Assembly: GCA_964036665.1 (NCBI GenBank)
Contig: OZ038531.1
Coordinates: forward strand, 12,338,168-12,402,167
Direction of reading: 5' to 3'
Origin: Gordius sp. MW1
Taxonomy: Eukaryota; Nematomorpha; Gordioida; Gordea; Gordiidae
Length of the DNA stretch: 64,000 nucleotides
The translations under genes were made by a program, and so were the position numbers. Positions 34,399 to 62,700 of the stretch are shown here, in pieces; the first letter of the stretch is position 1; each line of letters starts with the position of its first letter. The notes under the pieces are model-generated. The model worked only from the letters and a program-made list of their open reading frames with translations, was not told the origin of the DNA and ran no database searches.

Positions 34399-34401
34399 GT
34401 T
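34399..34401. other. Orientation-switch junction 1 (A forward / B reverse)
   Basis: Satellite A on the plus strand reads AAACGTTGTCTTTTGT up to 34,400 and should continue CAAAATGAT. Instead the sequence becomes TAGTTGGTTGTATCGCAGCG, which is minus-strand satellite B. Extending B leftward, the T at 34,400 still matches but the G at 34,399 does not. The two arms therefore share a single base. The join is convergent (arrows meet) and out of register, so it is non-homologous in appearance. Confidence 0.93.
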
Positions 34402-37133
34402 AGTTGGTTGTATCGCAGCGTGAGTGCTTAATTTTTGAAAACTGCCCTATGCAATCATGATTTTAAGGAAATAGTTTTTTGCTCCGGATAAATTTTTACT
34501 TTTTATCATGGAAATCACGTCAGAAAACGACAACTTCATCGGATGAATAGTATTAAAACAAAAAAATGTGAAAATTTTCTAAGAAAAAAAATATTTTTTT
34601 TGTTATTTTATGTGAAAGAGCTTGAAAAAATATATAAAAGTAAGCAATTTGAAAATCCTATTATCCGATTGACTCCCGAAAAGAACTTTTAAGCAGCGAA
34701 AACTCTCATTTTGACAAAAGAAAACGTTTTATTGTTGCCATTAGTTTGTTGTATCGCATCGTGAGTCCTTAATTTTTGAAACATGCTCCATGCAATCATG
34801 ATTTTAAAGAAATGGTTTTCTGATTCTGATAAATTTTTACTTTTTATCATGGAAATCACGTCTGAAAACTACAACTTTCATCGGATAAATAGTATTGAAA
34901 CAAAAAAATGTGAAATGTTTTGAGGTAAAAAAATTTATTTTTTGTTATTTTATGTTAAAGAGCTTGAAAAAATATATAAAAGTAAGCCAATTTGAGAATC
35001 CTATTATCCTCGATCGACTCCCGAAAAGAACTTTTAAGCAGCGAAAATCTCATTTTGACAAAAAAACAACGTTTTATTGTTGCTATTAGTTGGTTGTATC
35101 GCAGCGTGAGTGCTTAATTTTTGAAACATGCATCATGCAATCATGATTTTAAAGAAATGGTTTTCAGAATCTGATAAATTTTTACTTTTTATCAAGGAAA
35201 TCACGTCAGAAAACGACAACTTTCATCGGATGAATAGTATTGAAACAAAAAATGTGAAAAGTTTTGAGGTAAAAAAATTTATTTTTTTTATTTTATTTGA
35301 AAGAGCTTGAAAAAATATATAAAGGTAAGCCACTTTGAAAATCCTATTATCCGATTGACTCCCGAAAAGAACTTTTAAGCAGCGAAAACTCTCATTTTGA
35401 CAAAAGACAACGTTTTATTGTTGCTACTAGTTGGTTGTATCGCAGCGTGAGTGCTTAATTTTTGAAAACTGCTCTATGCAATCATGATTTTAAAGAAATA
35501 GTTTTTTGCTCCGGATAAATTTATACTTTTTATCATGGAAATCACGTCAGAAAACGACAACTTCATCGGATGAATAGTATTGAAACAAAAAAATGTGATA
35601 ATTTTCTAAGAAAAAAATATTTTTTTTGTTATTTTATGTGAAAGAGCTTGAAAAAATATATAAAAGTAAGCCAATTTGAAAATCCTTTTATCCGATTGAC
35701 TCCCGAAAAGAACTTTTAAGCAGCGAAAACTCTCATTTTGACAAAAGAAAACGTTTTATTGTTGCCATTAGTTTGTTGTATCGCATCGTGAGTGCTTAAT
35801 TTTTGAAACATGCTCCATGCAATCATGATTTTAAAGAAATGCTTTTTTGATTCTGATATATTTTTACTTTTTATCATGGAAATCACGTCTGAAAACTACA
35901 ACTTTCATGATGAATAGTATTGAAACAAAAAAAATTGGAAAATTTTCTAAGAAAAAAATATTTTTTTTGTTATTACAAAAGAGCTTGAAAAAATATATAG
36001 AAGTAAGCCAATTTGAGAATCTAATTATCCTCGATTGACTCCCGAAAAGAACTTTTAAGCAGCGAAAACTCTCATTTTGACAAAAGACAACGTTTTATTG
36101 TTGCTATTAGTTGGTTGTATCGCAGCGTGAGTGCTTAATTTTTTAAACAGGCTCCATGCAATCATGATTTTAAAGAAATGGTTTTCAGAATCTGATAAAT
36201 TTTTACTTTTTATCATGGAAATCACGTCAGAAAACGACAACTTTCATTGGATGAATAGTATTGAAACAAAAAATGTGAAAAGTTTTGAGGTAAAAAAATT
36301 TATTTTTTTTTATTTTATTTGAAAGACTTGAAAAAATATATAAAGGTAAGCCACTTTGAAAATCCTATTATCCGATTGACTCCCGAAAAGAGCTTTTAAG
36401 AAGCGAAAACTCTCATTTTGACAAAAGACAACGTTTTATTGTTGCTATTAGTTGGTTGTATCGCAGCGTGAGTGCTTAAGTTTTGAAAACTGCTCAATGC
36501 AGTCATGATTTTAAAGCAATAGTTTTTTGCTCCGGATAAATTTTTACTTTTTATCATGGAAATCACGTCAGAAAACGACAACTTCATCGGATGAATAGTA
36601 TTAAAACAAAAAAATGTGAAAATTTTCTAAGAAAAAAAATATTTTTTTTGTTATTTTATGTGAAAGAGCTTGAAAAAATATATAAAAGTAAGCCAATTTG
36701 AAAATCCTATTATCCGATTGACTCCCGAAAAGAACTTTTAAGCAGCGAAAATTCTCATTTTGACAAAAGACAACGTTTTATTGTTGCCATTAGTTTGTTG
36801 TATCGCATCGTGAGTGCTTAATTTTTGAAACATGCTCCATGCAATCATGATTTTAAAGAAATGCTTTTCTGATTCTGATATATTTTTACTTTTTATCATG
36901 GAAATAACGTCTGAAAACTACAACTTTCATCGGATGAATAGTATTGAAACAAAAAAATGTGAAAATTTTCTAAAAAAAAAAAACATTTTTTTTGTTATAC
37001 ATGTGAAAGAGCTTGAAAAAATATATAGAAGTAAGCCAATTTGAGAATCCTATTATCCTCGATTGACTCCCGAAAAGAACTTTTAAGCAGCGAAAACTCT
37101 CATTTGACAAAAGACAACGTTTTATTGTTGCTA
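34400..37133 (-). repeat. 8-mer satellite B unit, copy 1 (2,734 bp)
   Basis: Eight B monomers repeated downstream with an offset of 2,732-2,734 bp. Markers include GTAAGCAATTTG near 34,652 and 37,374, GAGTCCTTAATT near 34,762 and 37,494, the AATTTTTTAAACAGGCTCC monomer near 36,138 and 38,872, and the GCAGTCATGATT monomer near 36,500 and 39,234. The unit's left end coincides with the inversion junction at 34,400, so the inversion has cut the array inside or at the edge of this unit. Confidence 0.88.
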
Positions 37134-39868
37134 TTAGTTGGTTGTATCTCAGCGTGAGTGCTTAATTTTTGAAAACTGCTCTTTGCAATCATGATTTTAA
37201 AGAAATAGTTTTTTGCTCCGGATTAATTTTTACTTTTTATCATGGAAATCACGTCAGAAAAAGACAACTTCATCGGATGAATAGTATTAAAACAAAAAAA
37301 TGTGAAAATTTTCTAAGAAAATAATATTTTTTTGTTATTTTATGTGAAAGAGCTTGACAAAATATATAAAAGTAAGCAATTTGAAAATCCTATTATCCGA
37401 TTGACTCCCGAAAAGAACTTTTAAGCAGCGAAAACTCTCATTTTGACAAAAGAAAACGTTTTATTGTTGCCATTAGTTTGTTGTATCGCATCGTGAGTCC
37501 TTAATTTTTGAAACATGCTCCATGCAATCATGATTTTAAAGAAATGGTTTTCTGATTCTGATAAATTTTTACTTTTTATCATGGAAATCACGTCTGAAAA
37601 CTACAACTTTCATCGGATAAATAGTATTGAAACAAAAAAATGTGAAATGTTTTGAGGTAAAAAAATTTATTTTTTGTTATTTTATGTTAAAGAGCTTGAA
37701 AAAATATATAAAAGTAAGCCAATTTGAGAATCCTATTATCCTCGATCGACTCCCGAAAAGAACTTTTAAGCAGCAAAAATCTCATTTTGACAAAAAAACA
37801 ACGTTTTATTGTTGCTATTAGTTGGTTGTATCGCAGCGTGAGTGCTTAATTTTTGAAACATGCTCCATGCAATCATGATTTTAAAGAAATGGTTTTCAGA
37901 ATCTGATAAATTTTTACTTTTTATCAAGGAAATCACGTCAGAAAACGACAACTTTCATCGGATGAATAGTATTGAAACAAAAAATGTGAAAAGTTTTGAG
38001 GTAAAAAAATTTATTTTTTTTTTATTTTATTTGAAAGAGCTTGAAAAAATATATAAAGGTAAGCCACTTTGAAAATCCTATTATCCGATTGACTCCCGAA
38101 AAGAACTTTTAAGCAGCGAAAACTCTCATTTTGACAAAAGACAACGTTTTATTGTTGCTACTAGTTGGTTGTATCGCAGCGTGAGTGCTTAATTTTTGAA
38201 AACTGCTCTATGCAATCATGATTTTAAAGAAATAGTTTTTTGCTCCGGATAAATTTATACTTTTTATCATGGAAATCACGTCAGAAAACGACAACTTCAT
38301 CGGATGAATAGTATTGAAACAAAAAAATGTGATAATTTTCTAAGAAAAAAATATTTTTTTTGTTATTTTATGTGAAAGAGCTTGAAAAAATATATAAAAG
38401 TAAGCCAATTTGAAAATCCTTTTATCCGATTGACTCCCGAAAAGAACTTTTACACAGCGAAAACTCTCATTTTGACAAAAGAAAACGTTTTATTGTTGCC
38501 ATTAGTTTGTTGTATCGCATCGTGAGTGCTTAATTTTTGAAACATGCTCCATGCAATCATGATTTTAAAGAAATGCTTTTTTGATTCTGATATATTTTTA
38601 CTTTTTATCATGGAAATCACGTCTGAAAACTACAACTTTCATGATGAATAGTATTGAAACAAAAAAAATTGGAAAATTTTCTAAGAAAAAAATATTTTTT
38701 TTGTTATTACAAAAGAGCTTGAAAAAATATATAGAAGTAAGCCAATTTGAGAATCTAATTATCCTCGATTGACTCCCGAAAAGAACTTTTAAGCAGCGAA
38801 AACTCTCATTTTGACAAAAGACAACGTTTTATTGTTGCTATTAGTTGGTTGTATCGCAGCGTGAGTGCTTAATTTTTTAAACAGGCTCCATGCAATCATG
38901 ATTTTAAAGAAATGGTTTTCAGAATCTGATAAATTTTTACTTTTTATCATGGAAATCACGTCAGAAAACGACAACTTTCATTGGATGAATAGTATTGAAA
39001 CAAAAAATGTGAAAAGTTTTGAGGTAAAAAAATTTATTTTTTTTTATTTTATTTGAAAGACTTGAAAAAATATATAAAGGTAAGCCACTTTGAAAATCCT
39101 ATTATCCGATTGACTCCCGAAAAGAGCTTTTAAGAAGCGAAAACTCTCATTTTGACAAAAGACAACGTTTTATTGTTGCTATTAGTTGGTTGTATCGCAG
39201 CGTGAGTGCTTAAGTTTTGAAAACTGCTCAATGCAGTCATGATTTTAAAGCAATAGTTTTTTGCTCCGGATAAATTTTTACTTTTTATCATGGAAATCAC
39301 GTCAGAAAACGACAACTTCATCGGATGAATAGTATTAAAACAAAAAAATGTGAAAATTTTCTAAGAAAAAAAATATTTTTTTTGTTATTTTATGTGAAAG
39401 AGCTTGAAAAAATATATAAAAGTAAGCCAATTTGAAAATCCTATTATCCGATTGACTCCCGAAAAGAACTTTTAAGCAGCGAAAATTCTCATTTTGACAA
39501 AAGACAACGTTTTATTGTTGCCATTAGTTTGTTGTATCGCATCGTGAGTGCTTAATTTTTGAAACATGCTCCATGCAATCATGATTTTAAAGAAATGCTT
39601 TTCTGATTCTGATATATTTTTACTTTTTATCATGGAAATAACGTCTGAAAACTACAACTTTCATCGGATGAATAGTATTGAAACAAAAAAATGTGAAAAT
39701 TTTCTAAAAAAAAAAAACATTTTTTTTGTTATACATGTGAAAGAGCTTGAAAAAATATATAGAAATTAGCCAATTTGAGAATCCTATTATCCTCGATTGA
39801 CTCCCGAAAAGAACTTTTAAGCAGCGAAAACTCTCATTTGACAAAAGACAACGTTTTATTGTTGCTAT
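37134..39868 (-). repeat. 8-mer satellite B unit, copy 2
   Basis: Second copy of the 2,734-bp unit. The match continues about 115 bp beyond one full unit, to near 39,985. Differences from copy 1 are sparse (for example GCAGCAAAAATC near 37,769 against GCAGCGAAAATC, and TTTTACACAGCG near 38,448 against TTTTAAGCAGCG). A partial third copy follows at about 40,600-41,450, offset 1,995 bp from this one. Confidence 0.88.
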
Positions 39869-39989
39869 TAGTTGGTTGTATCTCAGCGTGAGTGCTTAAT
39901 TTTTGAAAACTGCTCTTTGCAATCATGATTTTAAAGAAATAGTTTTTTGCTCCGGATTAATTTTTACTTTTTATCATGGAAATCACGTC

Positions 39990-40550
39990 AGAAAATGACA
40001 ACTTTCATCGGATGAATAGTATTGAAACAAAAAAATGTGAAAATTTTCTAAGAAAAAAAATATTTTTTTTGTTATTTTATGTGAAAGAGCTTGAAAAAAT
40101 ATATAGAAGTAAGCTGATTTGAGAATCCTTTTAAGCAGCGAAAACTCTCATTTTGACAAAAGACAACGTTTTATTGTTGCTACTAGTTGGTTGTATCGCA
40201 GCGTGAGTGCTTAATTTTTGAAAACTGCTCTTTGCAATCATGATTTTAAAGAAATAGTTTTTTGCTCCGGATTAATTTTTACTTTTTATCATGGAAATCA
40301 CGTCAGAAAATGACAACTTTCATCGGATGAATAGTATTGAAACAAAAAAATGTGAAAATTTTCTAAGAAAAAAAATATTTTTTTTGTTATTTTATGTGAA
40401 AGAGCTTGAAAAAATATATAGAAGTAAGCTGATTTGAGAATCCTTTTAAGCAGCGAAAACTCTCATTTTGACAAAAGACAACGTTTTATTGTTGCTACTA
40501 GTTGGTTGTATCGCAGCGTGAGTGCTTAATTTTTGAAAACTGCTCTATGC
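39990..40550 (-). repeat. Tandem pair of shortened satellite B monomers (315 bp)
   Basis: Two successive monomers have GTAAGCTGATTTGAGAATCCT joined to TTTAAGCAGCG, at 40,129/40,130 and 40,444/40,445. About 30 bp from ATTATCCTCG to AAGAACT is missing. The two monomers are 315 bp apart and share the private GCTGATTT change, so one is a direct duplicate of the other. Confidence 0.9.
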
Positions 40551-40599
40551 AATCATGATTTTAAAGAAATAGTTTTTTGCTCCGGATAAATTTATACTT

Positions 40600-41450
40600 T
40601 TTATCATGGAAATCACGTCTGAAAACTACAACTTTCATGATGAATAGTATTGAAACAAAAAAATTGTAAAATTTTCTAAGAAAAAAATATTTTTTTTGTT
40701 ATTACAAAAGAGCTTGAAAAAATATATAGAAGTAAGCCAATTTGAGAATCTAATTATCCTCGATAGACTCCCGAAAAGAACTTTTAAGCAGCGAAAACTC
40801 TCATTTTGACAAAAGACAACGTTTTATTGTTGCTATTAGTTGGTTGTATCGCAGCGTGAGTGCTTAATTTTTTAAACAGGCTCCATGCAATCATGATTTT
40901 AAAGAAATGGTTTTCAGAATCTGATAAATTTTTACTTTTTATCATGGAAATCACGTCAGAAAACGACAACTTTCATTGGATGAATAGTATTGAAACAAAA
41001 AATGTGAAAAGTTTTGAGGTAAAAAAATTTATTTTTTTTTATTTTATTTGAAAGACTTGAAAAAATATATAAAGGTAAGCCACTTTGAAAATCCTATTAT
41101 CCGATTGACTCCCGAAAAGAGCTTTTAAGAAGCGAAAACTCTCATTTTGACAAAAGACAACGTTTTATTGTTGCTATTAGTTGGTTGTATCGCAGCGTGA
41201 GTGCTTAAGTTTTGAAAACTGCTCAATGCAATCATGATTTTAAAGCAATAGTTTTTTGCTCCGGATAAGTTTTTACTTTTTATCATGGAAATCACGTCAG
41301 AAAACGACAACTTCATCGGATGAATAGTATTAAAACAAAAAAATGTGAAAATTTTCTAAGAAAAAAAATATTTTTTTTGTTATTTTATGTGAAAGAGCTT
41401 GAAAAAATATATAAAAGTAAGCCAATTTGAAAATCCTATATCCGATTGAC
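40600..41450 (-). repeat. Partial third copy of the satellite B 8-mer
   Basis: Repeats the CATGATGAATAG, TTTTTTAAACAGGCTCC and TTAAGTTTTGAAAACTGCTC monomers of the 8-mer unit at an offset of 1,995 bp from copy 2. Its left edge cuts into a B1-type monomer near 40,600, giving a hybrid monomer (CCGGATAAATTTATAC followed by GTCTGAAAACTACAAC). This shows that amplification steps do not respect monomer boundaries. Confidence 0.78.
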
Positions 41451-42430
41451 TCCCGAAAAGAACTTTTAAGCAGCGAAAACTCTCATTTTGACAAAAGACA
41501 ACGTTTTATTGTTGCTATTAGTTGGTTGTATCGCATCGTGAGTGCTTAATTTTTGAAACATGCTCCATGCAATCATAATTTTAAAGAAAAGGTTTTCTGA
41601 TTCTGATAAATTTTTACTTTTTATCATGGAAATCACGTCTGAAAACGACAACTTTCATCGGATGAATAAAATTGAAACAAAAAAATGTGAAAATTTTCTA
41701 AGAAAAAAATTATTTTTTTTGTTATTTTATGTGAAAGAGCTTGAAAAAATATATAGAAGTAAGCCTAATTGAGAATCCTATTATCCTCGATTGACTCCCC
41801 AAAAGAACTTTTAAGCAGCGAAAACTCTCATTTTGACAAAAGACAACGTTTTATTGTTGCTATTAGTTGGTTGTATCGCAGCGTGAGTGCTTAATTTTTG
41901 AAAACTGCTCTTGGCAATCATGATTTTAAAGAAATAGTTTTTGCTCTGGAGAAATTTTTACTTTTTATCAGAGAAATCACCTCAAAAAACGACAACTTCA
42001 TCGGATGAATAGTATTGAAACAAAAAAATGTAAAATTTCTAAGAAAAAAAAAATTTTTTTTTGTTATTTTATGTGAAAGAGCTTGAAAAAATATATAGAA
42101 GTAAGCCTATTTGAGAATATTATTATCTTCGATTGACTCCCGAAAAGAACTTTTAAGCAGCGAAAACTCTCATTTTAACAAAAGACAACGTTTTATTGTT
42201 GCTATTAGTTGGTTGTATCGCAGCGTGAGTGCTTAATTTTTGAAAACTGCTCTTGGCAATCATGATTTTAAAGAAATAGTTTTTGCTCTGGAGAAATTTT
42301 TAATTTTTATCATGGAAATCACGTCAGAAAACGACAACTTCATCGGATGAATAGTATTGAAGCAAAAAAATGTGAAAAGTTTTAAGGTAAAAAAATTTAT
42401 TTTTAGTTATTTTATGTGAAAGTGCTTGAA
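41450..42430 (-). repeat. Satellite B, irregular monomers
   Basis: About three B monomers between the 8-mer and 3-mer regions. Private states include GGCAATCATGATT with TTTGCTCTGGAGAAA, and a one-off TTTTTATCAGAGAAATCACC near 41,965. The TTTGCTCTGGAGAAA allele first appears here and then recurs through 46 kb. No other sequence type is present. Confidence 0.75.
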
Positions 42431-44540
42431 AAAATAAATAAAAGGAAGCCAATTTGAAAATCCTATTATCCGATTGACTCCCGAAAAGAACTTTTAAGCA
42501 GCGAAAACTCTCATTTTGATAAAAGACAACGTTTTGTTGTTGCCATTAGTTTGTTGTATCGCATCGTGAGTGCTTAATTTTTTAAACATGCTCCATGCAA
42601 TCATGATTTTAAAGAAATGCTTTTCTGATTCTGATAAATTTTTACTTTTTATCATGGAAATCACGTCTGAAAACGACAACTTTCATCGGATGAACAGTAT
42701 TGAAACAAAAAAATGTGAAAATTTTCTAAGAAAAAAAATGTTTTTTTTGTTATTTTATGTGAAAGAGCTTGAAAAAATATATAGAAGTAAGCCTAATTAA
42801 GAATCCTATTATCCTCGATTGACTCCCGAAAAGAACTTTTAAGCAGCGAAAACTCTCATTTTGACAATAGACAACGTTTTATTGTTGCTATTAGTTGGTT
42901 GTATCGCAGCGTGAGTGCTTAATTTTTGAAAACTGCTCTTGGCAATCATGATTTTAAAGAAATAGTTTTTGCTCTGGAGAAATTTTTACTTTTTATCATG
43001 GAAATCACGTCAGAAAACGACAACTTCATCGGATGAATAGTATTGAAACAAAAAAATGTGAAAAGTTTTGAGGTAAAAAAATTTATTTTTAGTTATTTTA
43101 TGTGAAAGTGCTTGACAAAATAAATAAAAGGAAGCCAATTTGAAAATCCTATTATCCGATTGACTCCCGAAAAGAACTTTTAAGCAGCGAAAACTCTCAT
43201 TTTAACAAAAGACAACGTTTTATTGTTGCTATTAGTTGGTTGTATCGCAGCGTGAGTGCTTAATTTTTGAAAACTGCTCTTGGCAATCATGATTTTAAAG
43301 AAATAGTTTTTGCTCTGGAGAAATTTTTACTTTTTATCATGGAAATCACGTCAGAAAACGACAACTTCATCGGATGAATAGTATTGAAACAAAAAAATGT
43401 GAAAAGTTTTGAGGTAAAAAAATTTATTTTTAGTTATTTTATGTGAAAGTGCTTGAAAAAATAAATAAAAGGAAGCCAATTTGAAAATCCTATTATCCGA
43501 TTGACTCCCGAAAAGAACTTTTAAGCAGCGAAAACTCTCATTTTGACAAAAGACAACGTTTTATTGTTGCCATTAGTTTGTTGTATCGCATCGTGAGTGC
43601 TTAATTTTTTAAACATGCTCCATGCAATCATGATTTTAAAGAAATGCTTTTCTGATTCTGATAAATTTTTACTTTTTATCATGGAAATCACGTCTGAAAA
43701 CGACAACTTTCATCGGATGAATAGTATTGAAACAAAAAAATGTGAAAATTTTCTAAGAAAAAAAATCTTTTTTTTGTTATTTTATGTGAAAGAGCTTGAA
43801 AAAATATATAGAAGTAAGCCAATTTGAGAATCCTATTATCCTCGATTGACTCCCGAAAAGAACTTTTAAGCAGCGAAAACTCTCATTTTGACAAAAGACA
43901 ACGTTTTATTGTTACTATTAGTTGGTTGTATCGCAGCGTTAGTGTTTAATTTTTGAAAACTGCTCTTTGCAATCATGATTTTAAAGAAATAGTTTTTTGC
44001 TCCGGATAAATTTTTACTTTTTATCATGGAAATCACGTCAGAAAACGACAACTTCATCGGATGAATAGTATTGAAACAAAAAAATGTAAAACTTCTAAGA
44101 AAAAAAATACTTTTTTTGTTATTTTATGTGAAAGAGCTTGAAAAAATATATAGAAGTAAGCCAATTTGAGAATATTATTATCCTCGATTGACTCCAGAAA
44201 ATAACTTTTAAGCAGCGAAAACTCTCATTTTGACAAAAGACAACGTTTTATTGTTGCTATTAGTTGTTTGTATCGTAGCGTGAGTGCTTAATTTTTGAAA
44301 ACTGCTCTATGCAATCATGATTTTAAAGAAATAGTTTTTGCTCTGGAGAAATTTTTACTTTTTATCATGGAAATCACGTCAGAAAACGACAACTTCATCG
44401 GATGAATAGTATTAATGTTAAAAGTTTTGAGGTAAAAAAATTTATTTTTAGTTATTTTATGTGAAAGAGCTTGAAAAAATATATAAAAGTAAGCCAATTT
44501 GAAAATCCTATTATCCGATTGACTCCCGAAAAGAACTTTT
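42430..44540 (-). repeat. 3-mer higher-order repeat of satellite B, period ~1,027 bp
   Basis: The monomer with GCATCGTGAG and TTTTTTAAACATGCTCC recurs near 42,557, 43,584 and 44,602 (steps ~1,027 and ~1,018), and again near 45,288 and 46,322. Between successive copies lie one or two GCTCTGGAGAAA monomers. The two nearest units are close in sequence, while later ones are less regular. The last step is shorter because of a ~9-bp contraction in the ATTAATGTTAAAAG monomer near 44,410. Confidence 0.7.
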
Positions 44541-46547
44541 AAGCAGCGAAAACTCTCATTTTGACAAAAGACAACGTTTTATTGTTGCCATTAGTTTGTT
44601 GTATCGCATCGTGAGTGCTTAATTTTTTAGACATGCTCCATGCAATCATGATTTTAAAGAAATGCTTTTCTGATTCTGATAAATTTTTACTTTTTATCAT
44701 GGAAATCACGTCTGAAAACGACAACTTTCATCGGAAGAATAGTATTGAAAAAAAAAATGTGAAAATTTTCTAAGAAAAAAAATATTTTTTTTGTTATTTT
44801 ATGTGAAAGAGCTTGAAAAAATATATAGAAGTAAGCCTAATTAAGAATCCTATTATCCTCGATTGACTCCCGAAAAGAACTTTTAAGCAGCGAAAACTCT
44901 CATTTTGACAAAAGACAACGTTTTATTGTTGCTATTAGTTGGTTGTATCGCAGCGTGAGTGCTTAATTTTTGAAAACTGCTCTATGCAATCATGATTTTA
45001 AAGAAATAGTTTTTTGCTCCGGAGAAATTTTTACTTTTTATCATGGAAATCACGTCAGAAAACGACATCTTCATGGGATGAATAGTATTGAAACAAAAAA
45101 ATGTGAAAATTTCCTAAGAAAAAAAATATTTTTTTTGTTATTTTATGTGAAAGAGCTTAAAAAAATATAAAAAAGTAAGCCAATTTGAAAATCCTATTAT
45201 CCGATTGACTCCCGAAAAGAACTTTTAAGCAGCGAAAACTCTCATTTTGACAAAAGACAACGTTTTATTGTTGCCATTAGTTTGTTGTATCGCATCGTGA
45301 GTGCTTAATTTTTTAAACATGCTCCATCCAATCATGATTTTAAAGAAATGCTTTTCAGATTCTGATAAATTTTTACTTTTTATCATGGAAATCACGTCTG
45401 AAAACGACAACTTTCATCGGATGAATAGTATTGAAACAAAAAAATGTGAAAATTTTCTAAGAAAAAAAAATATTTTTTTTGTTATTTTATGTGAAAGAGC
45501 TTAAAAAAATATATAGAAGTAAGCCTAATTAAGAATCCTATTATCCTCGATTGACTCCCGAAAAGAACTTTTAAGCAGCGAAAACTCTCATTTTGACAAA
45601 AGACAACTTTTTATTGTTGCTATTAGTTGGTTGTATCGCAGCGTGAGTGCTTAATTTTTGAAAACTGCTCTATGCAATCATGATTTTAAAGAAATAGTTT
45701 TTTGCTCCGGATAAATTTTTACTTTTTATCATGGAAATCACGTCAGAAAACGACAACTTCATCGGATGAATAGTATTGAAACAAAAAAATGTAAAATTTC
45801 TAAGAAAAAAAAATACTTTTTTTGTTATTTTATGTGAAAGAGCTTGAAAAAATATATAGAAGTAAGCCAATTTGAGAATATTATTATCCTCGATTGACTC
45901 CCGAAAATAACTTTTAAGCAGCGAAAACTCTCATTTTGACAAAAGACAACGTTTTATTGTTGCTATTAGTTGGTTGTATCGCAGCGTGAGTGCTTAATTT
46001 TTGAAAACTGCTCTATGCAATCATGATTTTAAAGAAATAGTTTTTGCTCTGGAGAAATTTTTACTTTTTATCATGGAAATCACGTCAGAAAACGACAACT
46101 TCATCGGATGAATAGTATTGAAACAAAAAAATGTGAAAAGTTTTGAGGTAAAAAAATTTATTTTTAGTTATTTTATGTGAAAGAGCTTGAAAAAATATAT
46201 AAAAGTAAGCCAATTTGAAAATCCTATTATCCGATTGACTCACGAAAAGAACTTTTAAGCAGCGAAAACTCTCATTTTGACAAAAGACAACGTTTTATTG
46301 TTGCCATTAGTTTGTTGTATCGCATCGTGAGTGCTTAATTTTTTAAACATGCTCCATGCAACATGATTTTAAAGAAATGTTTTTCTGATTCTGATAAATC
46401 TTTACTTTTTATCATGGAAATCACGTCTGAAAACGACAACTTTCATCGGATGAATAGTATTGAAACAAAAAAATGTGAAAATTTTCTAAGAAAAAAAATA
46501 TTTTATTTGTTATTTTATGTAAAAGAGCTTGAAAAAATATATAGAAG
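44541..46547 (-). repeat. Satellite B, mixed monomers approaching the A boundary
   Basis: About six B monomers alternating B2 (GCATCGTGAG) and B1 (GCAGCGTGAG) types, with some B3-like A-type tracts (TTTTGAGGTAAAAAAATT near 46,140). Only satellite sequence is present. Monomers remain fully B up to the switch at 46,548. Confidence 0.8.
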
Positions 46548-46580
46548 TAAGCCAATTTGAGAATCCTATTATCCTCGATT
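46548..46580 (-). other. In-register switch from satellite B to satellite A
   Basis: The last B-specific bases are in ATATAGAAG (46,539-46,547) and the preceding AGAGCTTG. The first A-specific base is the T at 46,581 in TTTACTTCCG, where B has TTGACTCCCG. Between them the two subfamilies are identical, so the switch lies inside this shared tract and keeps both monomer phase and orientation. That is what homologous unequal exchange or gene conversion would produce, in contrast to the two out-of-register joins at 34,400 and 58,977. Confidence 0.9.
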
Positions 46581-49264
46581 TACTTCCGAAAAGAGGTTTT
46601 AAGCTGCGAGAACTATCATTTTGACAAAAGACAACGTTTTATTGTTGCGACTAGTTTGTTGTATCGCAACGTAAGTGCTTAATTTTTCAAAAATGCACTA
46701 TGCGATCATGATTTTAAAGTAATAGTTTTCTGATTCTGATAAATTTTAACTTTTTATCATCGAAACCACGTCTGAAAACGACAGTTCATCGGATGCATAC
46801 GGTTGAAAGAAAAATATGTGAAAAATTTTAAGGTAAAAATATTTATTTTTTTCGATTCTATGTGAAAAAGCATGAAAAAATATATAAAAGTAATCCAATT
46901 TGAGAATCCTATTATCCTCGATTGACTTCTGAAAAGAGGTTTTAAGCTGCGAGAACTATCATTTTGACAAAAGACAACGTTATTGTTGCGATTAGTTTGT
47001 TGTATCACAACGTGAGTGCTTAATTTTTGAAAACTGCTCTATGCGATTATGATTTCAAAGTAATAGTTTTCTGATTCTGATATATTTTTACTTTTTATCA
47101 TGGAAACAACGTCTGAAAACGACAACTTTCATCGGATGAATACGGTTCAAAGAAAAATATGTGAAAAATTTAGAGGTAAAATATTTGTTTTTTTCGATTC
47201 TATGTGAAAGAGCATGAAAAAATATATAAAAGTAAGCCAATTTGAGAATCCTATTATCCTCGATTTACTTCCGAAAAGAGGTTTTAAGCTGCCAGAACTA
47301 TTCATTTTGACAAAAGACAACGTTTTATAGTTGCGATTAGTTTGTTGTATCGCAACGTGAGTGCTTAATTTTTGAAAATAGCTCTATGCGATCATGATTT
47401 CAAAGTAATAGTTTTCAGATTCTGATAAATTTTTACTTGAGATTATAGAAACCACGTCTGAAAACGACAACTTTCATCGGATGAATACCGTTCAAAGAAA
47501 AATATGTGAAAAATTTTGAGGTAAAAATATTTATTTTTTTCGATTCTATGTAAAAGAGCATGAAAAAATATATAAAAGTAATCCAATTTGAGAATCCTAT
47601 TATCCTCGATTGACTTTGAAAAGAGGTTTTAAGCTGCGAGAACTATCATTTTGACAAAAGACAACGTTATTGTTGCGATTAGTTTGTTGTATCACAACGT
47701 GAGTGCTTAATTTTTGAAAACTGCTCTATGCGATTATGATTTCAAAGTAATAGTTTTCTGATTCTGATATATTTTTACTTTTTATCATGGAAACAACGTC
47801 TGAAAACGACAACTTTCATCGGATGAATACGGTTCAAAGAAAAATATGTAGAGGTAAAATATTTATTTTTTTCGATTCTATGTGAAAGAGCATGAAAAAA
47901 TATATAAAAGTAAGCCAATTTGAGAATCCTATTATCCTCGATTTACTCCCGAAAAGAGGATTTAAGCTGCGAGAACAATCATTTTGACAAAAGACAACGT
48001 TTTATTGTTGCGATTAGTTTGTTGTATCGCAACGTAAGTGCTTAATTTTTCAAAAATGCACTATGCGATCATGATTTTAAAGTAATAGTTTTCTGATTCT
48101 GATAAATTTTTACTTTTTATCATCGAAATTACGTCTGAAAACGACAGTTCATCGGATGCATACGGTTGAAAGAAAAATCTGTGAAAAATTTTGAGGTAAA
48201 AATATTTATTTTTTTCGATTCTATGTGAAAGAGCATGAAAAAATATATAAAAGTAAGCCAATTTGAGAATCCTATTATCCTCGATTTACTTCCGAAAAGA
48301 GGTTTTAAGCTGCGAGAACTATCAATTTGACAAAAGACAACGTTTTATTGTTGCGATTAGTTTGTTGTATCGCAACGTGAGTACTTAATTTTTCAAAAAT
48401 GCACTATGCGATCATGATTTTAAAGTAATAGTTTTCTGATTCTGATAAATTTTTACTTTTTATCATCGAAACCACGTCTGAAAACGACAACTTTCATCGG
48501 ATGCATACGGTTGAAAGAAAAATATGTGAAAGATTTTGAGGTAAAAATATTTATTTTTTTCGTTTCTATGTGAAAGAGCATGAAAAAATATATAAAAGTA
48601 AGCCAATTTGAGAATCCTATTATCCTCGATTTACTTCCGAAAAGAGGTTTTAAGCTGCCAGAACTATTCATTTTGACAAAAGACAACGTTTTAATGTTGC
48701 GATTAGTTTGTTGTATCGCAACGTGAGTGCTTAATTTTTGAAAACTGCTCTATGCGATTATAATTTCAAAGTAATAGTTTTTAGATTCTGATAAATTTTT
48801 ACTTGGGATCATAGAAACCACGTCTGAAAACGACAACTTTCATTGGATGAGTACGGTTCAAAGAAAAATATGTGAAAAATTTTGAGGTAAAAATATTTAT
48901 TTTTTTCGATTCTATGTAAAAGAGCATGAAAAAATATATAAAAGTAAGCCAATTTGAGAATCCTATTATCCTCGATTTACTTCCGAAAAGAGGTTTTAAG
49001 CTGCCAGAACTATTCATTTTGACAAAAGACAACGTTTTAATGTTGCGATTAGTTTGTTGTATCGCAACGTGAGTGCTTAATTTTTCAAAAATGCATTATG
49101 TGATCATGATTTCAAAGTAATAGTTTTCAGATTCTGATAAATTTTTACTTGGGATCATAGAAACCACGTCTGAAAACGACAACTTTCATCGGATGAGTAC
49201 GGTTCAAAGAAAAATATGTGAAAAATTTTGAGGTAAAAATATTTATTTTTTTCGATTCTATGTG
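46581..49264 (-). repeat. Satellite A reverse, monomers nearest the B boundary
   Basis: About eight A monomers with no long tandem unit. Two monomers near 46,970 and 47,665 share the rare AACGTTATTGTTGCG contraction and TATCACAACGTGAG, spaced ~694 bp (a dimer). A monomer near 47,850 has lost the AAAAATTT segment (ATATGTAGAGGTAAAAT). Only satellite sequence is present. Confidence 0.78.
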
Positions 49265-51220
49265 AAAGAGCATGAAAAAATATATAAAAGTAAGCCAATT
49301 TGAGAATCCTATTATCCTCGATTTACTTCCGAAAAGAGGTTTTAAGCTGCGAGAACTATCATTTTGACAAAAGACAACGTTTTATTGTTGCGATTAGTTT
49401 GTTGTATCGCAACGTGAGTACTTAATTTTTCAAAAATGCACTATGCGATCATAATTTTAAAGTAATAGTTTTCTGATTTTGATAAATTTTTACTTTTTAT
49501 CATCGAAACCACGTCTGAAAACGACAACTTTCATCGGATGCATACGGTTGAAAGAAAAATATGTGAAAGATTTTGAGGTAAAAATATTTATTTTTTTCGA
49601 TTCTATGTGAAAGAGCATGAAAAAATGTATAAAAGTAAGCCAATTTGAGAATCCTATTATCCTCGATTTACTTCCGAAAAGAGGTTTTAAGCTGCCAGAA
49701 CTATTCATTTTGACAAAAGACAACGTTTTAATGTTGTGATTAGTTTGTTGTATCGCAACGTGAGTGCTTAATTTTTGAAAACTGCTCTATGCGATTATAA
49801 TTTCAAAGTAATAGTTTTTAGATTCTGATAAATTTTTACTTGGGATCATAGAAACCACGTCTGAAAACGACAACTTTCATCGGATGAGTACGGTTCAAAG
49901 AAAAATATGTGAAAAATTTTGAGGTAAAAATATTTATTTTTTTCGATTCTATGTAAAAGAGCATGAAAAAATATATAAAAGTAAGCCAATTTGAGAATAT
50001 TATTATCCTCGATTTACTTCCGAAAAGAGGTTTTAAGCTGCCAGAACTATTCATTTTGACAAAAGACAACGTTTTAATGTTGCGATTAGTTTGTTGTATC
50101 GCAACGTGAGTGCTTAATTTTTCAAAAATGCATTATGTGATCATGATTTCAAAGTAATAGTTTTCAGATTCTGATAAATTTTTACTTGGGATCATAGAAA
50201 CCACGTCTGAAAACGACAACTTTCATCGGATGAGTACGGTTCAAAGAAAAATATGTGAAAAATTTTGAGGTAAAAATATTTATTTTTTTCGATTCTATGT
50301 GAAAGAGCATGAAAAAATATATAAAAGTAAGCCAATTTGAGAATCCTATTATTCTCGATTTACTTCCGAAAAGAGGTTTTAAGCTGTGAGAACTATCATT
50401 TTGACAAAAGACAACGTTTTATTGTTGCGATTAGTTTGTTGTATCGCAACGTAAGTGCTTAATTTTTCAAAAATGCACTATGCGATTATGATTTTAAAGT
50501 AATAGTTTTCTGATTCTGATAAATTTTTACTTTTTATCATCGAAACCACGTCTGAAAACGACAGTTCATCGGATGCATACGGTTGAAAGAAAAATATGTG
50601 AAAAATTTTGAGGTAAAAATATTTATTTTTTTCGATTCTATGTAAAAGAGCATGAAAAAATATATAAAAGTAAGCCAATTTGAGAATCCTATTATCCTCG
50701 ATTTACTTCCGAAAAGAGGTTTTAAGCTACGAGAACTATCATTTTGACAAAAGACAACGTTTTATTGCTGCGATTAGTTTGTTGTATCACAACGTGAGTG
50801 CTTAATTTTTCAAAAATGCAATATGTGATCATGATTTCAAAGTAATAGTTTTCAGATTTTGATAAATTTTTACTTGGGATCATAGAAACCATGTCTGAAA
50901 ACGACACCTTTCGTCTTATGCATACGGTAGAAAGAAAAATATGTGAAAAATTTTGAGGTAAAAATATTTATTTTTTTCGATTCTATGTAAAAGAGCATGA
51001 AAAAATATATAAAAGTAAGCTAATTTGAGAATCCTATTATCCTCGATTTACTTCCGAAAAGTGGTTTTAAGCTGCGAGAACTATCATTTTGACAAAAGAC
51101 AGCGTTTTATTGTTGCGATTAATTTGTTGTATCGCAACGTGAGTGCTTAATTTTTCAAAAATGCATTATGTGATCATGATTTCAAAGTAATAGTTTTCAG
51201 ATTCTGATAAATTTTTACTT
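49265..51220 (-). repeat. Satellite A segment duplicated at 54,437-56,392 (offset 5,172 bp)
   Basis: Markers GATCATAATTTTAAAG, ATGTTGTGATTAG, the ATTTTTCAAAAATGCAATATG monomer (given in part) and AAAGACAGCG recur 15 monomers downstream at a constant 5,172 bp. A few single differences separate the copies (AAAAATGTATAAAAG near 49,625 against AAAAATATATAAAAG; GAATATTATTA near 49,996 against GAATCCTATTA). The right edge is near 51,220, where GGGATCATATAAACC replaces GCGATCATAGAAACC. Confidence 0.85.
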
Positions 51221-53485
51221 GGGATCATATAAACCACGTCTGAAAACGACAACTTTCATCGGATGAGTACGGTTCAAAGAAAAATATGTGAAAAATTTTG
51301 AGGTAAAAATATTTATTTTTTTCGATTCTATGTAAAAGAGCATGAAAAAATATATAAAAGTAAGCCAATTTGAGAATCCTATTATCCTCGATATACTTCC
51401 GAAAAGAGGTTTTAAGCTGCCAGAACTATTCATTTTGACAAAAGACAACGTTTTAATGTTGCGATTAGTTTGTTGTATCGCAACGTGAGTGCTTAATTTT
51501 TCAAAAATGCATTATGTGATCATGATTTCAAAGTAATAGTTTTCAGATTCTGATAAATTTTTACTTGGGATCATAGAAACCACGTCTGAAAACGACAACT
51601 TTCATCGGATGAGTACGGTTCAAAGAAAAATATGTGAAAAATTTTGAGGTAAAAATATTTATTTTTTTCGATTCTATGTGAAAGAGCATGAAAAAATATA
51701 TAAAAGTAAGCCAATTTGAGAATCCTATTATCCTCGATTTACTTCCGAAAAGAGGTTTTAAGCTGTGAGAACTATCATTTTGACAAAAGACAACGTTTTA
51801 TTGTTGCGATTAGTTTGTTGTATCGCAACGTAAGTGCTTAATTTTTCAAAAATGCACTATGCGATTATGATTTTAAAGTAATAGTTTTCTGATTCTGATA
51901 AATTTTTACTTTTTATCATCGAAACCACGTCTGAAAACGACAGTTCATCGGATGCATACGGTTGAAAGAAAAATATGTGAAAAATTTTGAGGTAAAAATA
52001 TTTATTTTTTTCGATTCTATGTAAAAGAGCATGAAAAAATATATAAAAGTAAGCCAATTTGAGAATCCTATTATCCTCGATTTACTTCCGAAAAGAGGTT
52101 TTAAGCTACGAGAACTATCATTTTGACAAAAGACAACGTTTTATTGCTGCGATTAGTTTGTTGTATCACAACGTGAGTGCTTAATTTTTCAAAAATGCAA
52201 TATGTGATCATGATTTCAAAGTAATAGTTTTCAGATTTTGATAAATTTTTACTTGGGATCATAGAAACCATGTCTGAAAACGACACCTTTCGTCTTATGC
52301 ATACGGTAGAAAGAAAAATATGTGAAAAATTTTGAGGTAAAAATATTTATTTTTTTCGATTCTATGTAAAAGAGCATGAAAAAATATATAAAAGTAAGCT
52401 AATTTGAGAATCCTATTATCCTCGATTTACTTCCGAAAAGTGGTTTTAAGCTGCGAGAACTATCATTTTGACAAAAGACAGCGTTTTATTGTTGCGATTA
52501 ATTTGTTGTATCGCAACGTGAGTGCTTAATTTTTCAAAAATGCATTATGTGATCATGATTTCAAAGTAATAGTTTTCAGATTCTGATAAATTTTTACTTG
52601 GGATCATATAAACCACGTCTGAAAACGACAACTTTCATCGGATGAGTACGGTTCAAAGAAAAATATGTGAAAAATTTTGAGGTAAAAATATTTATTTTTT
52701 TCGATTCTATGTAAAAGAGCATGAAAAAATATATAAAAGTAAGCCAATTTGAGAATCCTATTATCCTCGATATACTTCCGAAAAGAGGTTTTAAGCTGCC
52801 AGAACTATTCATTTTGACAAAAGACAACGTTTTAATGTTGCGATTAGTTTGTTGTATCGCAACGTGAGTGCTTAATTTTTCAAAAATGCATTATGTGATC
52901 ATGATTTCAAAGTAATAGTTTTCAGATTCTGATAAATTTTTACTTGGGATCATAGAAACCACGTCTGAAAACGACAACTTTCATCGGATGAGTACGGTTC
53001 AAAGAAAAATATGTGAAAAATTTTGAGGTAAAAATATTTATTTTTTTCGATTCTATGTGAAAGAGCATGAAAAAATATATAAAAGTAAGCCAATTTGAGA
53101 ATCCTATTATCCTCGATTTACTTCCGAAAAGAGGTTTTAAGCTGTGAGAACTATCATTTTGACAAAAGACAACGTTTTATTGTTGCGATTAGTTTGTTGT
53201 ATCGCAACGTAAGTGCTTAATTTTTCAAAAATGCACTATGCGATTATGATTTTAAAGTAATAGTTTTCTGATTCTGATAAATTTTTACTTTTTATCATCG
53301 AAACCACGTCTGAAAACGACAGTTCATCGGATGCATACGGTTGAAAGAAAAATATGTGAAAAATTTTGAGGTAAAAATATTTATTTTTTTCGATTCTATG
53401 TAAAAGAGCATGAAAAAATATATAAAAGTAAGCCAATTTGAGAATCCTATTATCCTCGATTTACTTCCGAAAAGAGGTTTTAAGC
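50020..53485 (-). repeat. 4-mer higher-order repeat of satellite A, period 1,379 bp
   Basis: About 2.5 units of four monomers. Anchors: CATCGAAACCACG with GACAGTTCATCGG near 50,540, 51,919 and 53,298; GACACCTTTCGTCTTATGC near 50,904 and 52,283; GGGATCATATAAACC near 51,217 and 52,596; CGATATACTTCCG near 51,390 and 52,769. Offsets are 1,379 bp throughout and I found no differences between units by eye. The unit has the same number of monomers as the forward-block 4-mer but a different composition, so it arose separately. Confidence 0.9.
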
Positions 53486-54436
53486 TGTGAGAACTATCAT
53501 TTTGACAAAAGACAACGTTTTATTGTTGCGATTAGTTTGTTGTATCGCAACGTAAGTGCTTAATTTTTCAAAAATGCACTATGCGATTATGATTTTAAAG
53601 TAATAGTTTTCTGATTCTGATAAATTTTTACTTTTTATCATCGAAACCACGTCTGAAAACGACAGTTCATCGGATGCATACGGTTGAAAGAAAAATATGT
53701 GAAAAATTTTGAGGTAAAAATATTTATTTTTTTCGATTCTATGTGAAAGAGCATGAAAAAATATATAAAAGTAAGCCAATTTGAGAATCCTATTATCCTC
53801 GATTTACTTCCGAAAAGAGGTTTTAAGCTGCGAGAACTATCATTTTGACAAAAGACAACGTTTTATTGTTGCGATTAGTTTGTTGTATCGCAACGTGAGT
53901 ACTTAATTTTTCAAAAATGCACTATGCGATCATAATTTTAAAGTAATAGTTTTCTGATTTTGATAAATTTTTACTTTTTATCATCGAAACCACGTCTGAA
54001 AACGACAACTTTCATCGGATGCATACGGTTGAAAGAAAAATATGTGAAAGATTTTGAGGTAAAAATATTTATTTTTTTCGATTCTATGTGAAAGAGCATG
54101 AAAAAATATATAAAAGTAAGCCAATTTGAGAATCCTATTATCCTCGATTTACTTCCGAAAAGAGGTTTTAAGCTGCCAGAACTATTCATTTTGACAAAAG
54201 ACAACGTTTTAATGTTGTGATTAGTTTGTTGTATCGCAACGTGAGTGCTTAATTTTTGAAAACTGCTCTATGCGATTATAATTTCAAAGTAATAGTTTTT
54301 AGATTCTGATAAATTTTTACTTGGGATCATAGAAACCACGTCTGAAAACGACAACTTTCATCGGATGAGTACGGTTCAAAGAAAAATATGTGAAAAATTT
54401 TGAGGTAAAAATATTTATTTTTTTCGATTCTATGTA

Positions 54437-56392
54437 AAAGAGCATGAAAAAATATATAAAAGTAAGCCAATTTGAGAATCCTATTATCCTCGATTTACTT
54501 CCGAAAAGAGGTTTTAAGCTGCGAGAACTATCATTTTGACAAAAGACAACGTTTTATTGTTGCGATTAGTTTGTTGTATCGCAACGTGAGTACTTAATTT
54601 TTCAAAAATGCACTATGCGATCATAATTTTAAAGTAATAGTTTTCTGATTTTGATAAATTTTTACTTTTTATCATCGAAACCACGTCTGAAAACGACAAC
54701 TTTCATCGGATGCATACGGTTGAAAGAAAAATATGTGAAAGATTTTGAGGTAAAAATATTTATTTTTTTCGATTCTATGTGAAAGAGCATGAAAAAATAT
54801 ATAAAAGTAAGCCAATTTGAGAATCCTATTATCCTCGATTTACTTCCGAAAAGAGGTTTTAAGCTGCCAGAACTATTCATTTTGACAAAAGACAACGTTT
54901 TAATGTTGTGATTAGTTTGTTGTATCGCAACGTGAGTGCTTAATTTTTGAAAACTGCTCTATGCGATTATAATTTCAAAGTAATAGTTTTTAGATTCTGA
55001 TAAATTTTTACTTGGGATCATAGAAACCACGTCTGAAAACGACAACTTTCATCGGATGAGTACGGTTCAAAGAAAAATATGTGAAAAATTTTGAGGTAAA
55101 AATATTTATTTTTTTCGATTCTATGTAAAAGAGCATGAAAAAATATATAAAAGTAAGCCAATTTGAGAATCCTATTATCCTCGATTTACTTCCGAAAAGA
55201 GGTTTTAAGCTGCCAGAACTATTCATTTTGACAAAAGACAACGTTTTAATGTTGCGATTAGTTTGTTGTATCGCAACGTGAGTGCTTAATTTTTCAAAAA
55301 TGCATTATGTGATCATGATTTCAAAGTAATAGTTTTCAGATTCTGATAAATTTTTACTTGGGATCATAGAAACCACGTCTGAAAACGACAACTTTCATCG
55401 GATGAGTACGGTTCAAAGAAAAATATGTGAAAAATTTTGAGGTAAAAATATTTATTTTTTTCGATTCTATGTGAAAGAGCATGAAAAAATATATAAAAGT
55501 AAGCCAATTTGAGAATCCTATTATCCTCGATTTACTTCCGAAAAGAGGTTTTAAGCTGTGAGAACTATCATTTTGACAAAAGACAACGTTTTATTGTTGC
55601 GATTAGTTTGTTGTATCGCAACGTAAGTGCTTAATTTTTCAAAAATGCACTATGCGATTATGATTTTAAAGTAATAGTTTTCTGATTCTGATAAATTTTT
55701 ACTTTTTATCATCGAAACCACGTCTGAAAACGACAGTTCATCGGATGCATACGGTTGAAAGAAAAATATGTGAAAAATTTTGAGGTAAAAATATTTATTT
55801 TTTTCGATTCTATGTAAAAGAGCATGAAAAAATATATAAAAGTAAGCCAATTTGAGAATCCTATTATCCTCGATTTACTTCCGAAAAGAGGTTTTAAGCT
55901 ACGAGAACTATCATTTTGACAAAAGACAACGTTTTATTGCTGCGATTAGTTTGTTGTATCACAACGTGAGTGCTTAATTTTTCAAAAATGCAATATGTGA
56001 TCATGATTTCAAAGTAATAGTTTTCAGATTTTGATAAATTTTTACTTGGGATCATAGAAACCATGTCTGAAAACGACACCTTTCGTCTTATGCATACGGT
56101 AGAAAGAAAAATATGTGAAAAATTTTGAGGTAAAAATATTTATTTTTTTCGATTCTATGTAAAAGAGCATGAAAAAATATATAAAAGTAAGCTAATTTGA
56201 GAATCCTATTATCCTCGATTTACTTCCGAAAAGTGGTTTTAAGCTGCGAGAACTATCATTTTGACAAAAGACAGCGTTTTATTGTTGCGATTAATTTGTT
56301 GTATCGCAACGTGAGTGCTTAATTTTTCAAAAATGCATTATGTGATCATGATTTCAAAGTAATAGTTTTCAGATTCTGATAAATTTTTACTT
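54437..56392 (-). repeat. Satellite A segment, partner of 49,265-51,220
   Basis: Copy of the ~1.96 kb segment, displaced 5,172 bp. The intervening 4-mer amplification (50.0-53.5 kb) begins inside the first copy. The present layout therefore records at least two nested expansion events. The preceding 53,800-54,492 stretch repeats 54,493-55,183 as a dimer at offset 691 bp. Confidence 0.85.
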
Positions 56393-57087
56393 GCGATCAT
56401 AGAAACCACGTCTGAAAACGACAACTTTCATCGGATGCATACGGTTGAAAGAAAAATATGTGAAAAAATTTGAGGTAAAAATATTTTTTTTTTACGATTC
56501 TATGTGAAAGAGCATGAAAAAATATATAAAAGTAAGCCAATTTGAGAATCCTATTATCCTCGATTTACTTCCGAAAAGAGGTTTTAAGCTGCGAGAACTA
56601 TCATTTTGACAAAAGACAACGTTTTATTGTTGCGATTAGTTTGTTGTATCGCAACGTGAATACTTAATTTTTCAAAAATGCACTATGCGATCATGATTTT
56701 AAAGTAATAGTTTTCTGATTCTGATAAATTTTTACTTTTTATCATCGAAACCACGTCTGAAAACGACAACTTTCATCGGATGCATGCGGTTGAAATGTGA
56801 AAAATTTTGAGGTAAAAATATTTATTTTTTTCGATTCTATGTGAAAGAGCATGAAAAAATATATAAAAGTAAGCCAAATTGAGAATCCTATTATCGTCGA
56901 TTTACTTCCGAAAAGAGGTTTTAACCAGAACTATTCATTTTGACAAAAGACAACGTTTTAATGTTGCGATTAGTTTGTTGTATCGCAACGTGAGTGCTTA
57001 ATTTTTAAAAACTGCTTTATGCGATTATGATTTCAAAGTAATAGTTTTTAGATTCTGATAAATTTTTACTTGGGATCATAGAAACCA
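56370..57087 (-). repeat. Satellite A ~718-bp segment, copy 1 (offset 1,370 bp)
   Basis: Two monomers including the distinctive TGCATGCGGTTGAAATGTG contraction (56,781) and the GAGGTTTTAACCAGAAC contraction (near 56,925) recur at 58,151 and near 58,295. I saw no differences over the segment. It ends near 57,087, where CCATGTCTG in this copy corresponds to CCACGTCTG in the other. Confidence 0.88.
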
Positions 57088-57739
57088 TGTCTGAAAACGA
57101 CACCTTTCGTCTTATGCATACGGTAGAAAGAAAAATATGTGAAAAATTTTGAGGTAAAAATATTTATTTTTTTCGATTCTATGTGAAAGAGCATAAAAAA
57201 ATATATAAAAGTAAGCTAATTTGAGAATCCTATTATCCTCGATTTACTTCCAAAAAGAGGTTTTAAGCTACGAGAACTATCATTTTGACAAAAGACAACG
57301 TTTTATTGCTGCGATTAGTTTGTTGTATCACAACGTGAGTGCTTAATTTTTCAAAAATGCAATATGTGATCATGATTTCAAAGTAATAGTTTTCAGATTT
57401 TGATAAATTTTTACTTGGGATCATAGAAACCATGTCTGAAAACGACACCTTTCGTCTTATGCATACGGTAGAAAGAAAAATATGTGAAAAATTTTGAGGT
57501 AAAAATATTTATTTTTTTCGATTCTATGTGAAAGAGCATAAAAAAATATATAAAAGTAAGCTAATTTGAGAATCCTATTATCCTCGATTTACTTCCAAAA
57601 AGAGGTTTTAAGCTGCCAGAACTATTCATTTTGACAAAAGACAACGTTTTAATGTTGCGATTAGTTTGTTGTATCGCAACGTGAGTGCTTAATTTTTGAA
57701 AACTGCTCTATGCGATTATGATTTCAAAGTAATAGTTTT

Positions 57740-58457
57740 TAGATTCTGATAAATTTTTACTTGCGATCATAGAAACCACGTCTGAAAACGACAACTTTCA
57801 TCGGATGCATACGGTTGAAAGAAAAATATGTGAAAAAATTTGAGGTAAAAATATTTTTTTTTTACGATTCTATGTGAAAGAGCATGAAAAAATATATAAA
57901 AGTAAGCCAATTTGAGAATCCTATTATCCTCGATTTACTTCCGAAAAGAGGTTTTAAGCTGCGAGAACTATCATTTTGACAAAAGACAACGTTTTATTGT
58001 TGCGATTAGTTTGTTGTATCGCAACGTGAATACTTAATTTTTCAAAAATGCACTATGCGATCATGATTTTAAAGTAATAGTTTTCTGATTCTGATAAATT
58101 TTTACTTTTTATCATCGAAACCACGTCTGAAAACGACAACTTTCATCGGATGCATGCGGTTGAAATGTGAAAAATTTTGAGGTAAAAATATTTATTTTTT
58201 TCGATTCTATGTGAAAGAGCATGAAAAAATATATAAAAGTAAGCCAAATTGAGAATCCTATTATCGTCGATTTACTTCCGAAAAGAGGTTTTAACCAGAA
58301 CTATTCATTTTGACAAAAGACAACGTTTTAATGTTGCGATTAGTTTGTTGTATCGCAACGTGAGTGCTTAATTTTTAAAAACTGCTTTATGCGATTATGA
58401 TTTCAAAGTAATAGTTTTTAGATTCTGATAAATTTTTACTTGGGATCATAGAAACCA
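57740..58457 (-). repeat. Satellite A ~718-bp segment, copy 2
   Basis: Partner of 56,370-57,087 at an offset of 1,370 bp. It carries the same two contractions (TTGAAATGTGAAAAAT and GAGGTTTTAACCAG). Between the copies lie two near-identical monomers with GACACCTTTCGTCTTATGC (57,090-57,740). Confidence 0.88.
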
Positions 58458-58975
58458 CGTCTGAAAACGACAACATTCATCGGATGAATACGGTTGAAAG
58501 AAAAATATGTGAAAATTTTTGAGGTAAAAATATTTATTTTTTTCGATTCTATGTTAAAGAGCATGAAAAAATATATAAAAGTAAGCCAATTTGAGAATCC
58601 TGTTATCCTCGATTTACTTCCGAAAAGAGGTTTTAAGCTGCCAGAACTATCATTTTGACAAAAGACAACGTTTTGTTGTTGCGATTAGTTTGATGTATCG
58701 CACCGTGAGTACTTAATTTTTCAAAAATGCACTATGCGATCATGATTTTAAAGTAATAGTTTTCTGATTCTGATAAATTTTTACTTTTTATCATCGAAAC
58801 CACGTCTGAAAACGACAACTTTCATCGGATGCATACGGTTGAAAGAAAAATATGTGAAAAAATTTGAGGTAAAAATATTTTTTTTTTACGATTCTATGTG
58901 AAAGAGCATGAAAAAATATATAAAAGTAAGTCAATTTGAGAATCCTATTATCCTCGATTTACTTCCGAAAAGAGG

Positions 58976-58978
58976 TTA
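58976..58978. other. Orientation-switch junction 2 (A reverse / B forward)
   Basis: Minus-strand satellite A reads CTTCCGAAAAGAGGTT to 58,977, where TTAAGCTGC should follow. The sequence changes to AGCAACAATAAAACGTTG, which is plus-strand satellite B. The T at 58,977 fits both sides; the flanking bases fit only one side each. The join is divergent (arrows point apart), with one shared base and no filler. Confidence 0.93.
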
Positions 58979-60409: not shown

Positions 60410-60505
60410 CTTACTTTTATATATTTTTACAAGCTCTTTCACATAAAATAACAAAAACTTACTTATATGTATTTTTTCAAGCTCTTTCACATAAAATAAC
60501 AAAAA
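60410..60505 (+). repeat. 48-bp internal duplication in a satellite B monomer
   Basis: The stretch from CTTACTTTTATATATTTTT through CACATAAAATAACAAAAA is present twice in direct succession (60,410-60,457 and 60,458-60,505), lengthening this monomer by 48 bp. The second half has diverged to CTTACTTATATGTATTTTT. The same allele occurs at 62,495-62,590. Confidence 0.92.
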
Positions 60506-62590: not shown

Positions 62591-62700
62591 AAATATTTTT
62601 TTTCTTAGAAAATTTTCACATTTTTTTGTTTCAATAGTAATCATCCGATGAAAGTTGTCGTACGTGATTTCCATGATAAAAAGTAAAAATTTATCCGGAG

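Follow-up and report, generated by a model that had tools for sequence, protein, structure and literature searches.

Organization of the satellite array

The window, by which we mean the whole 64,000-nucleotide stretch analysed here, corresponds to C5:12,338,168-12,402,167, where C5 is a contig of 24.0 Mb in a genome assembly of 211.8 Mb and 12 contigs. It lies in an array of satellite monomers of about 340-346 bp with a G+C content of about 30%. CCCTAA repeats (TTAGGG type) are present at the start of C5. The right end of the contig (C5:24,000,969-24,001,768) is a GTTAAA-like AT-rich repeat and a telomere repeat was not found in its last 300 bases, which may mean that the assembled contig is not complete at this end.

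An HMM scan of C5:12,238,168-12,502,167 (264 kb, comprising the window and 100 kb on either side, with no N) identified 785 monomers, 712 on the plus strand and 73 on the minus strand. All 73 minus-strand monomers fall in a single block, at window positions 34,377-59,018 in the scan. The reversed stretch itself, 34,400-58,976 (24.6 kb), is the only one in the 264 kb and the array on both sides of it keeps the original orientation. K-means clustering of the 752 near-full monomers with k=3 gave five pure runs, namely A+ (383 monomers), B- (35), A- (36), B+ (106) and C+ (192). With k=2 the A and B subfamilies merged, and with k=4 and k=5 the array was broken into 140 and 178 short runs, respectively. 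A+ and A- monomers have a mean similarity of 0.937, and B+ and B- monomers one of 0.878; the corresponding values are 0.815-0.838 for A against B and 0.578-0.617 for C against A or B. The four-block layout A+, B-, A-, B+ described in an earlier sequence-only reading of the window is therefore confirmed, with 73 of 785 monomers reversed in one block and the clusters pure at k=3.

In the window the forward A array occupies positions 1-34,399 and continues leftward, being A+ in samples back to C5:12,038,168. It is joined at 34,399/34,400 to reversed B monomers, which extend to 46,464. A hybrid monomer on the minus strand (46,465-46,796; A score 335.5, B score 317.4) carries the B/A border inside the inverted block, and reversed A monomers follow from 46,797 to 58,976; both reversed arrays were assigned by the HMM scan and K-means. 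At 58,976/58,977 the reversed A array is joined to forward B monomers (58,977-64,000 in the window), which reach about 33 kb to the right of the window and give way to C+.

Two local features of the array may be recorded here. Both A and B include shortened monomers of 314-315 bp, at window positions 29,522-30,465, 31,867-32,494 and 39,814-40,750. To the left of the window, at C5:12,301,993-12,304,030, there is a 2 kb non-satellite insert with terminal direct repeats and ATCGAG on both flanks, as judged by eye; it looks like a non-coding LTR-type element.

The two joins

Both joins are abrupt and read as the earlier account had claimed. At 34,399/34,400 the A+ array ends in ...GTCTTTTG, at the motif CTTTTG, and the B- array begins TTAG (TTAGTTGG). 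At 58,976/58,977 the A- array ends in ...GAAAAGAGGT, at AGAGGT, and the B+ array begins TAGCAAC. The 25-mer spanning either join occurs once genome-wide at up to two mismatches. The joins are non-homologous, with a microhomology of 1 bp (T) at each. Since this T can be assigned to either side, each break is placed to within one base, which corrects the earlier description of both breakpoints as resolved to a single base.

Turning the block back restores a plain A-B-C order by one flip. The un-inverted B join then reads CCAACTAA followed by TAGCAAC, also written CCAACTAATAGCAAC, and is exactly in register; this string is found 53 times in the left B+ array, 18 times in the left B- array and 16 times in the right-arm B tracks. 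Register is blind to whole monomers lost or gained, so that the description of the B side as lossless holds for register only, modulo whole monomers. It is overstated as a description of the event, since whole monomers are undetectable in this way and the two B halves are unlike a native neighbouring pair (see below).

The un-inverted A join reads CTTTTG followed by ACCTCTTTTC and is short by 27 or 28 bp. Of 299 A monomers, 256 have a spacing of 27 bp from CTTTTG to ACCTCTTTT, and this figure had been taken as the exact loss. The monomer cut at the A join belongs to the CAACATT subtype, in which the spacing is 28 bp in 23 of 27 cases, 27 bp in two and 24 bp in two. The register is indeed short on this side, but the exact value of 27 bp cannot be upheld, because the subtype that was cut mostly has 28 bp; the A side lost 27 or 28 bp or, less probably, 24 bp.

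It had been argued that independent breaks would not be expected to restore register on both sides. If the breaks are assumed to be independent and uniform, the chance of both registers agreeing so well is about (1/341) × (55/341), or some 5 in 10 000, which bears out that argument. A break hotspot common to the joins and to the turn in the C array described below was considered and rejected: the C turn lies at a different monomer position, as judged by eye, and the A and B breaks are 26 bp apart in register, for which the chance is about 0.15.

Putative former neighbours at the joins

Rare words common to A+ and A- were compared for 12 combinations of word length and rarity over 43 A+ bins. 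For words from the last 3.1 kb of A-, the A+ bin adjoining 34.4 kb ranks first of the 43 in all 12 settings, with 66-82 words, against 5-37 in the runner-up bin. The far end of A- gives the same A+ bin a rank of 8 to 14 at the three stricter cut-offs and a rank of 1 to 3 at the loosest. This independent test links the two A ends that the inversion model makes neighbours. On the B side the bin at the join ranks just 5 to 10 of 12, and no words were left at the three stricter cut-offs.

The reconstructed pairs were also compared with native ones. The A pair resembles native neighbours: 14-21% of native sites are no better than it, and 5-20% of random pairs are as good. The B pair is matched by 33-53% of random pairs, and 0-4.5% of native sites are as poor. 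When unduplicated native sites are taken, those as poor as the B pair number 5 of 36 with 250 bp halves, 4-5 of 36 with 340 bp halves and 0 of 20 with 680 bp halves. The reconstructed B pair thus looks as if native halves had been paired at random. This mismatch could be explained by unequal exchange near the join at a later time, or by whole monomers having been lost in the event.

Similarity gradients along A- and B- gave no preference between the un-inverted and the present order. A rare-word table had suggested that the un-inverted B blocks follow the mirrored order of the right arm; this was dropped after rank correlations over monomer pairs, in which rho with the right arm ranges from -0.60 to 0.26 in the ancestral order and from -0.33 to 0.53 in the other reading. 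Ten of the 12 settings give a higher correlation for that other reading, and none of the 12 reaches significance at 0.05.

A mirrored array on C5

The window lies in a much larger structure. Sampled over 1.06 Mb, from about 12.04 to 13.10 Mb, the C5 array reads A+B+C+ followed by C-B-A-. Samples of 1 kb are A+ at 12.04-12.22 Mb (four of four), C+ at 12.52-12.60 Mb (three of three), C- at 12.66-12.94 Mb (six of six), B- at 12.970-12.974 Mb and A- at 13.00-13.10 Mb (three of three). Nineteen 400-base samples bracket the turn between C5:12,619,399 and 12,622,000, and a further sample at 12,948,000 is C-. The turn is at about C5:12,621,916, with plus-strand samples to its left and minus-strand samples to its right, and is, as judged by eye, a fold-back whose loop measures about 20 bases. 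Identity between its arms is 93.7% over 4.1 kb, which is near the general level of C monomers (mean similarity 0.922, by a different measure). In the right arm the B/A border is at C5:12,986,779-12,987,111, and 30.7 kb of sequence around this border contain only reversed monomers, with no orientation switch.

Word searches agree with this layout. A 26-base B word has 104 exact matches; the 100 of them that were listed are all on C5 and form three orientation-pure groups: the inverted block accounts for 13, the left B zone for 33 and the right B zone for 54. A 30-base C word has 206 forward and 363 reverse matches. Among the 100 listed, all on C5, the 60 before the turn are forward and the 40 after it are reverse; the other 146 forward matches fall beyond those listed, on C5 or later contigs. 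The array consists, in these samples, of two long opposite subarrays meeting at a turn, that is, a macro-dyad symmetry. A short B-like stretch on the plus strand is present at C5:11,004,128-11,005,920, about 1 Mb to the left of the nearest A+ sample.

Origin of the inverted block

Our analysis supports a single two-break inversion across the A/B border as the simplest account, and we consider it probable that this took place by end joining in an ancestral A+B+C+ left arm. In such a model the order A+, B+, C+ would be the original state of the left arm of the long satellite array. A and B would each have suffered one double-strand break, the two lying about 24.6 kb from each other, and the segment between them, with the A/B border inside, would have come free. 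End joining would have put it back in the opposite direction, using one base of microhomology per join and losing about 27-28 bp on the A side. The single inversion put forward in the sequence-only reading is for the most part borne out by further tests, which found a sole reversed block in the 264 kb, unique joins, rare words linking the two A ends and, in the 30.7 kb read, an unswitched border in the right arm. A simple A-then-B ancestor had also been envisaged; one flip does restore that order, but it was missed that the array is one arm of an A-B-C, C-B-A mirror.

Non-homologous joins, 1 bp microhomology and a small one-sided loss are what the end joining of a pair of double-strand breaks usually leaves behind. 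The unique joins and the 1 bp microhomology found here fit two breaks and such a repair, as does the loss of 27 or 28 bp, and end joining, as assigned earlier, is the probable repair. Recombination between inverted repeats was set aside as a cause since the joins are not homologous. What the sequence shows directly is the layout, the lone reversed block in the 264 kb, and the sequences and register of the joins; a single event, breaks and end joining rather than copying, and the ancestral order are inferred.

Copying would be a different route to a similar product. In replication template switching a fork would jump from A to the opposite strand in B, copy back through the border and jump forward again. 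The 1 bp microhomology at both joins is equally permitted by such a mechanism, but its two switches must hit the exact B register and the A register to within 27-28 bp, whereas cutting and flipping yields both registers with no extra assumption; we regard template switching as improbable. A second form of copying had to be tested because the array in the window is one arm of the mirror: the block could be a copy of the B-/A- border of the right arm, put into the left A/B border by conversion or template switching. The region C5:12,970,500-13,001,167 reads B- then A-, in the order and on the strand of the block. Among 16 windows of 1.5 kb along the block, 11 have a best match in the right arm that is slightly better than that in the left arm, with differences of up to 2.6 points, in a comparison that covered far less right-arm than left-arm sequence, and the B piece on the right-hand side of 58,977 is matched best (93.75%) beside the right-arm border. 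Such a copy must, however, have inserted exactly at the left A/B border, the crossover from B to A is at a different monomer position in the two borders (judged by eye), and the border zones of both arms may be alike for other reasons. The best right-arm identity in any of the 16 windows is 96.9%, which excludes a recent copy. This explanation is accordingly disfavoured, and we think it quite improbable.

The inversion was read from the assembly, and satellite arrays misassemble easily, so the block could be correct in itself and turned round in error, or the joins could be chimeric. The 264 kb are free of N, the joins lack the homology needed for a false overlap and a simple contig flip would not remove 27-28 bp on one side only; an error of this kind is very unlikely. 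Least probable of all is that two or more unrelated rearrangements gave the four blocks by chance. The B halves, being unlike a native pair, would suit that explanation, but it is opposed by the lack of a second reversed block in the 264 kb and by the agreement of both registers.

Comparison with known satellite arrays

Inverted satellite blocks are already known and the local inversion on C5 is one more example. Alpha-satellite arrays of primates contain inversions that were confirmed with reads (PMC11062924). As in the C5 block, monomers are reversed inside an array. By comparison with those inversions, the C5 block is 24.6 kb in length, crosses a subfamily border, has joins readable to within one base and was read from an assembly.

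Macro-dyad symmetries are described in Tribolium satellites, and the authors state that such macro-dyads are documented in that genus only (PMC13081366). The likeness to C5 extends to opposite subarrays with inversion sites and to related satellites with transition zones. The Tribolium inversion sites are conserved and recurrent, whereas each of the two C5 joins, found once genome-wide at up to two mismatches, is not a recurring turn sequence of that type (PMC13081366). The longest annotated Tribolium dyads given there are 75 and 26 kb, while the C5 structure exceeds 1 Mb in samples (PMC13081366). Searches of the literature by satellite strings and by words found nothing on this array among the listed results. 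The telomere-type repeat of Tribolium is TCAGG, compared with the TTAGGG type at the start of C5.

Homogenization usually blurs rearrangements inside satellite arrays. Because the flip crosses a subfamily border here, a single assembly is enough to read the break positions, the repair signature and the probable order of the ancestor. The C5 inversion is therefore a usable test case for the origin of orientation switches in centromere-like arrays. The surrounding mirror layout suggests that, outside Tribolium as well, such switches can develop into long-range architecture and, if borne out by a full reading, its extent of more than 1 Mb would be a more surprising observation than the local inversion.

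Orientation switches on other contigs

Among the matches listed, the A satellite occurs in long runs of alternating orientation at 11.25-14.11 Mb on C1 and at 8.47-12.54 Mb on C2. The first 100 of 372 matches of one A word, on C1, form four orientation runs of 22, 13, 3 and 62; the first 100 of 334 matches of another, on C2, form four runs of 38, 34, 25 and 3. A lone reversed match was not found among these listed C1 and C2 matches, in which such sparse words would miss many small inversions. We suggest, tentatively and with some doubt, that the satellite arrays of this genome may be mirror domains of about 0.2 to more than 1 Mb (A-B-C, C-B-A on C5; alternating on C1 and C2), far longer than the annotated Tribolium macro-dyads. 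The 24.6 kb inversion could then be a small, younger case of end-joining events that seed switches; amplification would later turn some of these into mirrored arms.

At C2:12,253,516-12,253,867 a 133-base plus-strand match lies 15 bases past a run of minus-strand matches, and this is probably another orientation switch, in a B-like satellite.
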